64,000 nt of DNA. Source: a candidate division KSB1 bacterium. GTDB lineage: Bacteria; Electryoneota; RPQS01. Location: the NCBI GenBank assembly GCA_016214895.1, contig JACRMR010000012.1, positions 62,001-126,000 of the forward strand, written 5' to 3'. The first letter of the stretch is position 1, and every line of letters starts with the position of its first letter. The notes beneath the pieces were generated by a model. It had not been told where the DNA came from and ran no database searches. It worked only from the letters and a program-made list of their open reading frames with translations. A program made the translations under genes and the position numbers. Below are positions 51,053 to 63,981 of this stretch, in pieces.

Positions 51053-52681
51053 CTACTTAACAAGATATATCCGCTGTGCAGATGCCGAAAGCGAACTTGT
51101 CGCCATCCGAACGAAGTACGTGCCTGATCCGAGACCGGAGGCATCCCACCTTAACTCGTGATTCCCTGCAATCAGCCGTCCCATCGAGCTTGAATGTACC
51201 TCGCGACCCAGAACATCCAGAATCTGCACATGAACCACTGATTCCCGGGCCAGGGTAAACGGGACTGTCGTCGAAAGGTTGAACGGGTTCGGATAGGCGG
51301 CCCCGACCGTCAAGTCCGTCGGGAGCAGTAACGGAGCGGGTCCCTCGCTCGCGAACGTGCCTTCGTAGGGATACCGGCCAATGTCGGGAGCGCTGTCGTC
51401 AGGGTCGCGCCCGTAAAGCGTGTCCGCGGCATCGATACACGGCGATCCCGGCAACAATGAGTAGTATAACCGGACGTCGGCTTCGCTGCTCCACAAGCCC
51501 CACACCCCCTCCCGACTCCAAAGCGGATCCGCGTCAATGTTGTGCCCGCCGTCGATCAGATTCGGAGAGTCGGTTTCCACGTCGATGACATCTTCGCCCG
51601 GCCCACCAGGAATGCCGTTCGGCCCCGCTGACCCGGAATTCGACCAACGAGTATTGTAATCATAGGTCAGCAGCCCACCCACCAAGGATACAAAGAAATG
51701 GTCGCCACGGTCCAGGACCACGCTGCTGCTGTTGACCGCCACGTCGGCCGAAACCGAGGCCACCACACCCGCCGAATACAGGTAGCTCTCCGGATCGTCA
51801 TTGGCGACGTCGATATTGCAGTGCAACACGCGCAGCGAACCTGTATTCGCGTTAAACACACCCTTGGGTGCGCCATCGACGCTGCGGACGCATACATTGC
51901 AGTGATCCATGATCGCCAACCCCGACCCAAACCCGCCCGCGTCCCCGAAATAGGCGCCCACGCACGTGTGCGGCGCATGCACCGTAAACGTATTGTCCGA
52001 GAGGCACAGATTCGATGACCCATCGACATAAAACGCCGTGGTGAATGACTGCGGCGGGCGAGGCCCCTCCACGTCTTCAACAAGTGCCGTTACGATGTTG
52101 TCGCAGAACTTGTTTCCGTCATGATTGTCGCAAGCATCAGCGATATCATTATAGAGACGGTCAAGCTTCACGGTCCGCGAGAAGATCCCCCATGTCGCGA
52201 ACTTGTTATTCTTCAACCACGCGCGTCCGCCGGTCAGCTCCACGCAAGAGCGCATCGCCACGAAGTCACACTGGCTGATCTCGATCATCGAATTCAGCCC
52301 CATCACCAGGTGAACCGGCACCGCCATCGACGGGTCGAGCAACACGTACTGCAGCGTCCGGACATCCGAGCCCGCCGCCACGAACGAAAATCCACTCCAC
52401 GGCACCGTCGGCCGGATAATGATCGGAGCCAAATGGGACCCGAGCGCCACAAACGAACCCTCTATGATAAAAGGTTCGACAACTTGTACTGTGATCACCA
52501 CGCCTGGCTCGATTGTCAACGAGGCTCCCGCAACCACCGTTGCCGGACCCTCAATGATGATGCTCGTCCCTGATGTCCACGTGCCACTAACCGGTCCGCT
52601 GACGCGGAGATCGCCGCACCAGGCCGCATTCGCGACCAGCAAGAGAATGGCAAGAATTGTGACCATTCCGCGACGGTTCAT
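51053..52681 (-). CDS. Secreted beta-helix-like protein with type IX (Por) C-terminal sorting domain
   Basis: A 542-residue exported protein. Signal peptide (MVTILAILLLVANAAWC), then a region of beta-helix-like repeats (about 30-400; SIIIEGPATVVAGASLTIEP, CLSDNTFTVHAPHTCVGAYF) and a C-terminal domain of about 80 residues with AAYPNPFNLSTTVPFTLA, VHVQILDVLGREV and GSGTYFVRM. That tail is the type A sorting signal of the type IX secretion system (YPNPF motif). Such proteins are exported to the surface and usually anchored. No enzyme motif was found. Confidence 0.85.
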   Translation of the reverse strand: MNRRGMVTILAILLLVANAAWCGDLRVSGPVSGTWTSGTSIIIEGPATVVAGASLTIEPGVVITVQVVEPFIIEGSFVALGSHLAPIIIRPTVPWSGFSFVAAGSDVRTLQYVLLDPSMAVPVHLVMGLNSMIEISQCDFVAMRSCVELTGGRAWLKNNKFATWGIFSRTVKLDRLYNDIADACDNHDGNKFCDNIVTALVEDVEGPRPPQSFTTAFYVDGSSNLCLSDNTFTVHAPHTCVGAYFGDAGGFGSGLAIMDHCNVCVRSVDGAPKGVFNANTGSLRVLHCNIDVANDDPESYLYSAGVVASVSADVAVNSSSVVLDRGDHFFVSLVGGLLTYDYNTRWSNSGSAGPNGIPGGPGEDVIDVETDSPNLIDGGHNIDADPLWSREGVWGLWSSEADVRLYYSLLPGSPCIDAADTLYGRDPDDSAPDIGRYPYEGTFASEGPAPLLLPTDLTVGAAYPNPFNLSTTVPFTLARESVVHVQILDVLGREVHSSSMGRLIAGNHELRWDASGLGSGTYFVRMATSSLSASAQRIYLVK

Positions 52682-52738
52682 GGTATTTGGTTGATACTCC
52701 GCACAGTTCACCAAAACCCAACTACTTCAGCAGTTTAT

Positions 52739-52795: not shown

Positions 52796-53035
52796 CTAAC
52801 TTCCCGCCTTGCCCCGCAGTTGTCTAATCAATTCAATCACTTCGGCGTGGTCGGGAAACCTGTGCTCGTGCAGTTTGCTGAAAATAAGCTGGTCGTCAAC
52901 CTTGATCTCGAATGCGCCTCCTCCCGACGGAATCAACAACGGGCTGGCAAAGCCCTGCCGCTTGAGGTACTCAGCCAAACTGGCTGCCTTGGGCTCGTAG
53001 TTTCAAACTACACAAAACTCGATGGAAATTCGCAT
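52796..53035 (-). CDS. SelW/Rdx-family selenoprotein (TGA-encoded selenocysteine)
   Basis: A 79-residue protein when an in-frame TGA at 53003-53005 is read as selenocysteine. It starts MRISIEFCVVU, then NYEPKAASLAEYLKRQGFA, and ends with the family's thioredoxin-like strand GGAFEIKVDDQLIFSK and a C-terminal helix. The CxxU redox motif has C8 and U11. GAGG lies 7 nt before the ATG at 53035. Without recoding, the gene looks like a 60-codon fragment starting at TTG. Family knowledge: SelT/SelW/SelH (Rdx) proteins are thioredoxin-fold oxidoreductases. It follows the SDR gene. Confidence 0.85.
52972..52986 (-). promoter_or_regulatory. SECIS-like hairpin for selenocysteine insertion
   Basis: On the minus strand CAGCCA-GTT-TGGCTG forms a perfect 6-bp stem with a GTT apical loop beginning with G. 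The loop starts 23 nt after the TGA, inside the window usual for bacterial SECIS elements (roughly 16-37 nt). It lies within the coding sequence, as expected in bacteria. Confidence 0.75.
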
Positions 53036-53094
53036 CGATAACCTCGTTTCATTCCGCAGTGAAGGCGCCGCACTAATCACGCCAGTTCCTCGCC

Positions 53095-53751
53095 TCAAAC
53101 TCCACCTACGACCATCCGGGCGGGGCGTTCGTCGATGGCCCGCGTCAGCCCCAAGACGACCTCGTCGCTGTTCAACCAGCGAAATTCGCCGGCCACCGCT
53201 ATTCGGCCGAGATAGACCTCCGTAATCTCGATCTTCGGCTGCAATTCGCGCCGGAGCGCCGCCGCGTAAATTTGCAAGGCGGCTTTGCTGGCGGCATAGG
53301 CCACTCCGGTCGTCTCCGGATGTAATGCGTCCGCCGAGGAAATCACAATGGCCTGACCGCCGCCCGATCGCTTGAACATCTCGTTGGCCAGCTGAAAGCA
53401 GTTCACAAAACCAAAGAAGTTTGTCCCCATCACACGCACAAGCTCCGATTCGGTCAGCGTGCTGGCGGACTCGCCGGAGACGACGCCGACATTATAGATC
53501 AGGCGATCCAGCCGCGGCGACCACCGGGCCAGCCGCTTAAACGCTTCCGTCACCGAAGCCGAATCCGTCACATCCGCCATATAACTCTCACATGGCGTGC
53601 CCAGCGAGTTCAACCGGGAGCGAAATTCCACCAGCCGCGGCTCGTTCCGCGCCAACAACGCAACCTGCTCGCCGCGACGACCCAACTCCCGCGCGAACTC
53701 AACCAGATCAGGCGATGCCCCCGCGATCAACGTGGTCGGCCGTGCGCTCAT
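53095..53751 (-). CDS. Short-chain dehydrogenase/reductase
   Basis: A 218-residue SDR. The cofactor loop is IAGASPDLVEFARELGRRGE, where classical SDRs have TGxxxGIG, so the glycine pattern is relaxed. The catalytic Ser/Tyr/Lys are present in VISSADALHPETTGVAYAAS followed by K. The NNAG position reads YNVGVV. It may act on a sugar or lipid precursor, unproven. The ATG at 53751 lies next to the stop of the Wzi-like gene; the selenoprotein gene follows by 60 bp. Confidence 0.85.
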   Translation of the reverse strand: MSARPTTLIAGASPDLVEFARELGRRGEQVALLARNEPRLVEFRSRLNSLGTPCESYMADVTDSASVTEAFKRLARWSPRLDRLIYNVGVVSGESASTLTESELVRVMGTNFFGFVNCFQLANEMFKRSGGGQAIVISSADALHPETTGVAYAASKAALQIYAAALRRELQPKIEITEVYLGRIAVAGEFRWLNSDEVVLGLTRAIDERPARMVVGGV

Positions 53752-53753
53752 TA

Positions 53754-55604
53754 TCACAGATTCCAACCAAATCCGATGCGCGTTTCGAAGCGATCTGCGG
53801 CCCGCGACTTCGTGAAAGTTGCGCCTTCCCCGTACAGCCACAAGTTTTCCAGTGCTTCAAAGCTCGCCCGCACGCCAAGTCTCGTGGTCCGCTCAAACCG
53901 TCCTGCCAAAAACGGCGCGTCAGCCTTCGCGTCCCCGGCCGACGGCAGGTAGATATCCCCGCCGACATTCTCCGTCTCCGTGTTCGCGCCGTGATTCTGC
54001 CGCGAGGCGTGCAAAGTCAGGTAGAACGGATAGAACGAGCCCGTCAGCTCCGCCGTCATGAATTCACTGTTCGGCTCCAGCGTGTACCCCAGTGGTGAAT
54101 ACCAATGCGTGTACGTGTTCGTCGCGAAGAAGTGCGAATAGACAAATGGACGGATGTGCGTGTACTCCAGCTTGAGGTCAAAGTGATTCCAAACCTCGCG
54201 CGGCACGATCGTTTGCGTCCCGATCGTGTACGCCGATTTGTTCGTCACCGCAGAGTTCATGAGTTCACCGACAATGATGTCATCGAAGAGCGCTTCGCCG
54301 TAGAGCTTCAGCCCCGCCACCGGCCGCCACGTGCCGTCGAAGCTCATCAGGAAATTGTCCTTGTCGTCGTTCGAGTGCTGCACACTGTAAAGGAAGTTCA
54401 GCGGCGTCAGATAACCGAGCTGCACGCCGCGGTCGCCGTAGATCACGCTCTGACTAAAGGCCACGATCAGATTCCCGCGCGGCCTGATCTCCAGCCGCTG
54501 CGCGCTCAAGTACTTCTCACGATTCAGATAGCGCGCGCGACCGTCCGACGCGTAATACAACGTATCGCCCGGCAGCGACGATTGCAGAAAGCCGTGCAGA
54601 AACGTGTAATAGACCGCCGCCGAACTCCGCGGCCCTTCCGATTCAAACGCGCCGTCGAATCGCAGATAGTCAAACGGCGGATTCTTCGAGTTCAGGAACA
54701 GGCTGCCGAACTGCCCCGGTCCCCACTGAAATCGTCCGCGTCCCGCCGCCAGTGACAGATCTTTCCCGTACCATTGCACAAACGACTCAGAGGTATTGTA
54801 GCTGGTCGAGGCGTTGTGCTTGAGGTCCACCGATCCCCACTCGTCTTCATAGAGCTGCGACCGCGTATCATACGGCCCGTTTCCCGATTCCGTATGATCG
54901 CGGAAGTCCATCATGTACCGCAGCTTCCCCGCATACCCGCCTTCGACTCGAAGCCCACCCGTAAATCGCGAAATCTGTCCGCGATCGTCATCCGTCGAAA
55001 TCAGTTCGTAGCCGTAAACGGGGTTGATGGCGAAGCCCAGCTTTCCGCCAACGGATGTGCGATAAAGGTGAAATCCATCGCGATACACCCATGACAGCGA
55101 CGCGGTGCGATGAATCGTCGCCCCGCACCACCTCGACATCTGGCTCGTAAGCACAGTATCAATTGGTACGGATAGGTTCTCGGTTGAGCGTGACTCGCGG
55201 TCGAATCTGCGAGCTTCTCGTCCTGCGCGGGAGGGACTCCACGTGCTTCCACGCGCGAGCGATGGGGATCGCCAGCGGCGTCGGATCTGTAGCCACGGCC
55301 GCGATGAAGAAATCATCGGCATCGATCCCAAAGTCTCTCTACGAGAGACCAATTGGAGAATGCGCTCGTCAACTCGTGGAAACAGGATACCGTTCAACAC
55401 GCCCGGGTCGGGAAGTGTGTCGTACACGAAGGTGTCATCAATCGCTACCAGCACCTCGTGTGTGCGCCCGCCGCGCACGTGCCGTTTGGTCGAATCCTCC
55501 GGGATCGGCTGACCGCTGGCCAGCGAACTGAGTAACAAGGCAAGCAGCAGCACCACCACCCCCCGGCCCCAAAATTGCACATTTCGACTGAACCACGAAC
55601 CCAT
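53754..55604 (-). CDS. Wzi-like outer-membrane beta-barrel, with an internal frame displacement
   Basis: A 616-residue exported protein: signal peptide (VVVLLLALLLSSLASG), then a long beta-barrel. The C-terminal 400 residues resemble capsule-assembly Wzi-type porins, with LAAGRGRFQWGPGQFGSLFL and YGDRGVQLGYLTPLNFLYSV. Residues about 95-150 are R/S/W-rich and unlike the rest. In the same DNA another minus-strand frame reads FGIDADDFFIAAVATDPTPL, clearly protein-like. So the gene contains a frameshift and probably a second one restoring frame. It may be a real indel or a sequencing error. It starts an operon with SDR and selenoprotein. Confidence 0.7.
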   Translation of the reverse strand: MGSWFSRNVQFWGRGVVVLLLALLLSSLASGQPIPEDSTKRHVRGGRTHEVLVAIDDTFVYDTLPDPGVLNGILFPRVDERILQLVSRRETLGSMPMISSSRPWLQIRRRWRSPSLARGSTWSPSRAGREARRFDRESRSTENLSVPIDTVLTSQMSRWCGATIHRTASLSWVYRDGFHLYRTSVGGKLGFAINPVYGYELISTDDDRGQISRFTGGLRVEGGYAGKLRYMMDFRDHTESGNGPYDTRSQLYEDEWGSVDLKHNASTSYNTSESFVQWYGKDLSLAAGRGRFQWGPGQFGSLFLNSKNPPFDYLRFDGAFESEGPRSSAAVYYTFLHGFLQSSLPGDTLYYASDGRARYLNREKYLSAQRLEIRPRGNLIVAFSQSVIYGDRGVQLGYLTPLNFLYSVQHSNDDKDNFLMSFDGTWRPVAGLKLYGEALFDDIIVGELMNSAVTNKSAYTIGTQTIVPREVWNHFDLKLEYTHIRPFVYSHFFATNTYTHWYSPLGYTLEPNSEFMTAELTGSFYPFYLTLHASRQNHGANTETENVGGDIYLPSAGDAKADAPFLAGRFERTTRLGVRASFEALENLWLYGEGATFTKSRAADRFETRIGFGWNL

Positions 55605-59976: not shown

Positions 59977-59989
59977 CATTCAAACAAAA

Positions 59990-60106
<117 letters not shown>

Positions 60107-60467
60107 ACCCACGGCGTGGGGTCTCTGCCGCGAAGATCCTACCCAAGGGGCAGGACCGTCCGGCATGCCCACGCGACAAACATTGCGGCTTGGCGATTCC
60201 ACCTGGCCCGATTACAGGTCCATGTCCGGAAGTCGAACAGCAAGCCGCGACTCACTGCGTGAGGGCATGGCCACCGCAGCCCGCCCCAAGGGACGGCGCT
60301 GTGCCACTCTGCCCGCACACAAAACCACGACAATCGGAAGTGACGACGAATCGTCAGACAATAAGGGCTCGTCAGGGAGATACCTGATCGAACTTAGATG
60401 AATCAAAAACAGCTAAAGCTGCATGGGACGACTTGATCGACGGTTTATGCGAAAAGAAAAAATAAAC
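60107..60467 (-). other. 23S-5S spacer (about 360 bp)
   Basis: Long spacer without a tRNA or open frame. Near 60441-60458 lies the 3' arm of the 23S processing stem. A hairpin TCCTGCCC/GGGTAGGA is present near 60137-60155. I see no other feature. Confidence 0.7.
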
Positions 60468-63381
<2,914 letters not shown>

Positions 63382-63553
63382 AAAATCTTTCCGCTTAAAC
63401 CGGTAGAACGATCAAATCGTCCCAAGCAGCTCTCAGCTATTTTCTAGTCACCCACGAACATTGATCAGAAAAACCGTGTCTGAAAAACTCCAAACACGAC
63501 TTTCTTACAAGTCGTTAGATTGATTTGTCTCTCGAGATTTAATTGCCCGTACA

Positions 63554-63577
63554 TTCGTTAGCTGGGTAGCTAACGAA
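63554..63577. other. Perfect hairpin in the tRNA-Ala/23S spacer
   Basis: 10-bp inverted repeat TTCGTTAGCT/AGCTAACGAA with a 4-nt loop in the 63382-63749 spacer. It is probably a processing or folding element of the precursor transcript; the rest of the spacer shows nothing recognisable. Confidence 0.5.
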
Positions 63578-63749
63578 GTACACTTCCGATTGTCAAAGAT
63601 CACATGCCGGTTGTGCCCCGGCACTCACATCCCGCCATTTAAGAGACGGGAGGAGGTACGAAAAAAAATCGAAATGCAGAAAAACGAAAATCGAAAAATC
63701 CCGCGCCCCCAAACCCAACGGGCAGGGAACAACAACGCTCCAACCATCG

Positions 63750-63822
63750 TGGAGCGTATCGGGATCGAACCGATGACCTCCGGCTTGCAAAGCCGGCGCT
63801 CTCCCAGCTGAGCTAACGCCCC
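63750..63822 (-). tRNA. tRNA-Ala (anticodon UGC)
   Basis: 73-nt cloverleaf: acceptor GGGGCGT/ACGCTCC with one G-U, D-arm TAGCTCAGCTGGGAGAGC, anticodon loop with TGC (GGCTTTGCAAGCC), T-arm TCGGTTCGATCCCGA, discriminator A, no encoded CCA. Standard position in the 16S-23S spacer. Confidence 0.97.
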
Positions 63823-63907
63823 AATCTCAACACCGGGCGTTCGCATCGTGGCCGACAGGCGGACGATGCAATCGGCCCCTACGATGAGGGGTGCCGGTTG
63901 ATTTCCG

Positions 63908-63981
<74 letters not shown>

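Follow-up and report, generated by a model that had tools for sequence, protein, structure and literature searches.

Here, we identify a SelW-like (Rdx family) selenoprotein gene on the minus strand at positions 52796-53035 of the window, i.e., the whole stretch of 64,000 nucleotides of DNA that was analyzed. We consider it nearly certain (probability roughly 0.97) that this gene encodes a protein of thioredoxin-like fold and that its in-frame UGA is decoded as selenocysteine (Sec). The reading frame extends from an ATG at 53035-53033 to a TAG stop at 52798-52796 and has a single interruption, a TGA at 53005-53003. When the TGA is read as Sec, the frame yields the 79 residues MRISIEFCVVUNYEPKAASLAEYLKRQGFASPLLIPSGGGAFEIKVDDQLIFSKLHEHRFPDHAEVIELIRQLRGKAGS, and Sec becomes residue 11 in the motif CVVU. 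The original prediction had left the strand unstated. The sequence itself shows a ribosome-site-like GAGGT (53041-53045, minus strand) whose end lies 5 nt upstream of the ATG, in agreement with the original prediction, which mentioned a good ribosome site. The gene is a further member of a well-described family, and both the family and the mechanism are already known. It comes from an uncultured lineage and is truncated or dropped by standard annotation; our understanding of the SelW-like family is left unchanged by the new member.

Several lines of evidence support that the TGA is a Sec codon, and it is because homology across the TGA, a conserved TGA column and covariation in the following RNA hairpin come together that the case goes far beyond chance. 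First, the read-through protein matches the Pfam Rdx profile over residues 2-72 with 67.2 bits (cut-off 22.6), covering profile positions 1-74 of 74, and matches NCBIfam TIGR02174 (CXXU_selWTH) with 62.9 bits (cut-off 34.2), the TGA falling at the second redox position. These matches across the TGA bear out the proposal of a hidden SelW/Rdx-family selenoprotein of 79 residues with CVVU. Among NCBIfam models, the protein scores highest against NF041051 (SelTWH_Campy, a SelT/SelW/SelH family (seleno)protein), with 81.7 bits over 68 residues, just short of the curated cut-off of that model (88 bits); we therefore assign it only to the broader TIGR02174. The AlphaFold model has a pLDDT of 94.8 and the SelW (thioredoxin-like) fold. 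Its best match in the PDB is the SelW-related 2fa8 (E 1.2e-6, TM 0.82-0.84), and it also matches the SelW-related 3dex, 2obk and 2p0g with TM-scores of ∼0.8. These four structures share the fold with the protein described here at 27-36% identity, while their chains are longer (103-107 residues vs 79). Relatives by sequence in the PDB are C17orf37, Atu0228 and SAV_2001, and Atu0228 (2fa8) has a Cys at the column of the present Sec codon. A search of the organism's own genome with the Rdx profile found no second Rdx copy.

The same frame can be read without Sec if translation starts at an internal TTG (52978), which would give a truncated protein of 60 residues. Indeed, the translation table 11 list of open reading frames holds, in the SelW-like frame, only this 60-residue fragment (52978-52796), just as had been anticipated in the claim that standard gene finding would be misled to the internal TTG. 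However, a product of this kind would lack two elements kept by all relatives, namely the first strand and, after it, the redox motif. Upstream of the TGA, there is also an ATG preceded by a ribosome site. We judge initiation at the TTG to be the least probable of the explanations considered, with a probability close to nil.

Second, the TGA is conserved at one column. Among 147 genomes searched, 36 had an Rdx match, and the matching frame contained exactly one in-frame TGA in 32 of these 36. In all 27 aligned homologues that carry a TGA, the one in the window included, it is the second position of CxxU. This motif follows the first strand (C8-V-V-U11 here). Its last position corresponds to a TGA in 26 homologues, and other relatives have Cys there, among them three from the same search (L002-L004) as well as Nitrospira, Verrucomicrobiales and other records. 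Thus, the suggested check of this column for Cys or Sec turned out as foreseen, homologues holding TGA or Cys at exactly this place. In addition, selA is present in 30 of the 32 genomes with the Sec form, and the two without it are drafts that are 86 and 88% complete.

These observations bear on the idea that the TGA is a true stop in a former Cys-form SelW gene, either as a pseudogene or through a sequencing error of TGC/TGT. A single TGA interrupting the frame and the Cys found at this position in some homologues would fit such a history. By contrast, 26 further aligned homologues that come from other genomes have the same TGA, the frame 3' of the TGA is fully conserved and a covarying Sec insertion (SECIS) hairpin is retained (see below). 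Because the same TGA recurs in 26 homologues from other genomes, a sequencing error appears very unlikely, and for a true stop in general we see only a very slight chance.

Third, the TGA is followed by a bacterial SECIS hairpin at 52972-52986 (minus strand) with the exactly pairing stem CAGCCA/TGGCTG and a GTT loop. The original prediction was exact in describing a 6-bp hairpin with a GTT loop but misplaced it: nucleotide 23 after the TGA, given as its beginning, is the G of the loop, and the stem starts at nucleotide 17, with 16 nt in between. Published criteria for bacterial SECIS elements are a loop of 3-9 nt, a stem of 4-16 bp, a G at loop position 1 or 2, a distance of 16-37 nt between UGA and loop, and a minimum free energy (MFE) of ≤ -7.5 (PMC13188914). 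The hairpin, with a GUU loop of 3 nt, 6 bp, 22 nt between UGA and loop and -11.0 kcal/mol (45 nt), agrees with them. Taken alone, it is weak evidence for a SECIS: if G-U pairs are allowed, a rule-fitting 6-pair stem comes after 14% of the window's TGAs, and the 45 nt downstream of the present TGA fold with an energy that is not exceptional for their composition (z = -0.35). A perfect Watson-Crick stem of 6 bp with a 3-nt loop follows 4 of the 2073 TGAs in the window, the SelW-like one among them.

The comparison of homologues adds to this. Across the 27 homologues, the loop G is invariant and 90.7% of stem cells pair. The covariation score of the stem is 0.270 vs 0.108 for shuffled alignments (0/500 shuffles), and controls in which the stem was slid gave ≤0.111; this shuffle test, like the following one, ignores kinship among the homologues. 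Residues 17 and 21 are both Ala in 25 sequences. The codon pairs in these are GCC/GCG (13), GCG/GCC (7), GCA/GCT (2) and GCT/GCA (1), such that the third positions pair in 23 of the 25 (mean of shuffles 10.7; 0 of 100000 shuffles gave 23). Because these codon changes are synonymous, constraint on the protein is no explanation for the pairing, and the SECIS stem looks to be under selection at the RNA level, on top of selection on the protein. This covariation at synonymous sites provides a clean illustration of the two layers of selection and, together with the published criteria, upholds the claim of a bacterial SECIS.

The original prediction also implied that the organism has the machinery for Sec, and this machinery is complete in its own genome (3.2 Mb, 98% complete), where selA (518 bits), selB (326 bits), selD (356 bits) and selC were all found. 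The tRNA-Sec, with anticodon TCA, lies at C8:198297-198390 (L031 1501-1596; plus strand), scores over the Rfam cut-off and is called tRNA-SeC(TCA) by ARAGORN. Among 41 genomes, i.e., the own genome and its nearest relatives, 33 have a tRNA-Sec, some in two copies. The selD gene (C12:250371-251294; L048 1459-2484; minus strand) itself has, by profile match and translation, an in-frame TGA in the motif VRCAGUASKMDP and encodes a Sec-form selenophosphate synthetase. At 187 bits, a second selB-like match, on C13, falls short of the cut-off; we take it to be a GTPase of the elongation factor Tu type. The organism very probably makes selenoproteins.

A further candidate is a peroxiredoxin gene (AhpC-TSA, 110 bits) at C23:55546-55947 (L067 1441-2000; plus strand) with one in-frame TGA in the motif FYPADYTFVUTTEF. 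The TGA falls at the apparent peroxidatic position, and the best NCBIfam match is PrxU (NF040737), below the cut-off of that model. This peroxiredoxin is likely a second selenoprotein in the own genome. The alpha subunit of formate dehydrogenase was rejected as another selenoprotein, the search of the own genome for it having yielded neither a match above the cut-off nor a TGA. Outside the SelW-like gene, a mechanical scan of the window for frames that are interrupted by a TGA and have a Cys close by and a SECIS-like hairpin yielded 27 candidates; judged by eye, none of them resembled a protein conserved across the TGA, as the SelW-like one does. A study of KSB1 from 2022 reported selA, selB and selD and the absence of selC (PMC9012183). 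Because selC is plainly present here, the absence reported in KSB1 may reflect a matter of detection, if the lineage is the same. It is conceivable, although we put this at somewhat less than an even chance, that a small selenoproteome, comprising at least the SelW-like protein, SelD and the peroxiredoxin, is served in this lineage by an ordinary selC, which, if the lineage is KSB1, would be contrary to the published statement.

The decoding of Sec by means of SelA, SelB, SelD and a SECIS is an established bacterial mechanism. We suggest that SelA would convert Ser-tRNA(Sec) to Sec-tRNA(Sec) using selenophosphate from SelD, and that SelB, together with GTP and Sec-tRNA(Sec), would bind the SECIS hairpin in the mRNA and deliver Sec at the upstream UGA. 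In the resulting product of 79 residues, the redox center would consist of Cys8 and Sec11 in the CVVU motif that follows the first strand, and a selenenylsulfide between these two residues would be formed in a thiol oxidoreductase cycle. From the sequence, we infer Sec insertion at the TGA as well as redox activity, with the SelW-like product predicted to function as a thiol/selenol oxidoreductase.

SelW-like proteins rank among the most abundant bacterial selenoproteins known and have long been listed as a bacterial selenoprotein family (PMC1794560). In the table from the Global Ocean Sampling, no family has more selenoprotein sequences than they do (427; PMC2398784), and a 2026 review lists them as PF10262 with CxxU, predicted with high confidence (PMC13188914). 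The present protein shares with the bacterial SelW-like selenoproteins (PF10262/TIGR02174) the family profile, the size and the CxxU motif, as well as a TGA followed by a bacterial SECIS and the occurrence of the Sec form in Sec-decoding bacteria. Nothing of substance differs, the present member being from an uncultured lineage.

The upstream gene on the same strand (53098-53754, minus) encodes a short-chain dehydrogenase (adh_short) according to the list of open reading frames and a profile match, and we conjecture that it might be co-transcribed with the SelW-like gene. Downstream, a gene at 51053-52714 (minus strand) codes for a secreted protein that carries a Por secretion-tail sorting domain of the sort employed in type IX secretion. 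These two neighbors give no clear hint of a partner for the SelW-like protein. Elsewhere in the window, a capsule assembly Wzi-like outer membrane protein is encoded at 53754-55604 (minus strand), and part of a ribosomal RNA operon, comprising tRNA-Ile, tRNA-Ala, 23S and 5S rRNA, occupies 59989-63981 (minus strand).
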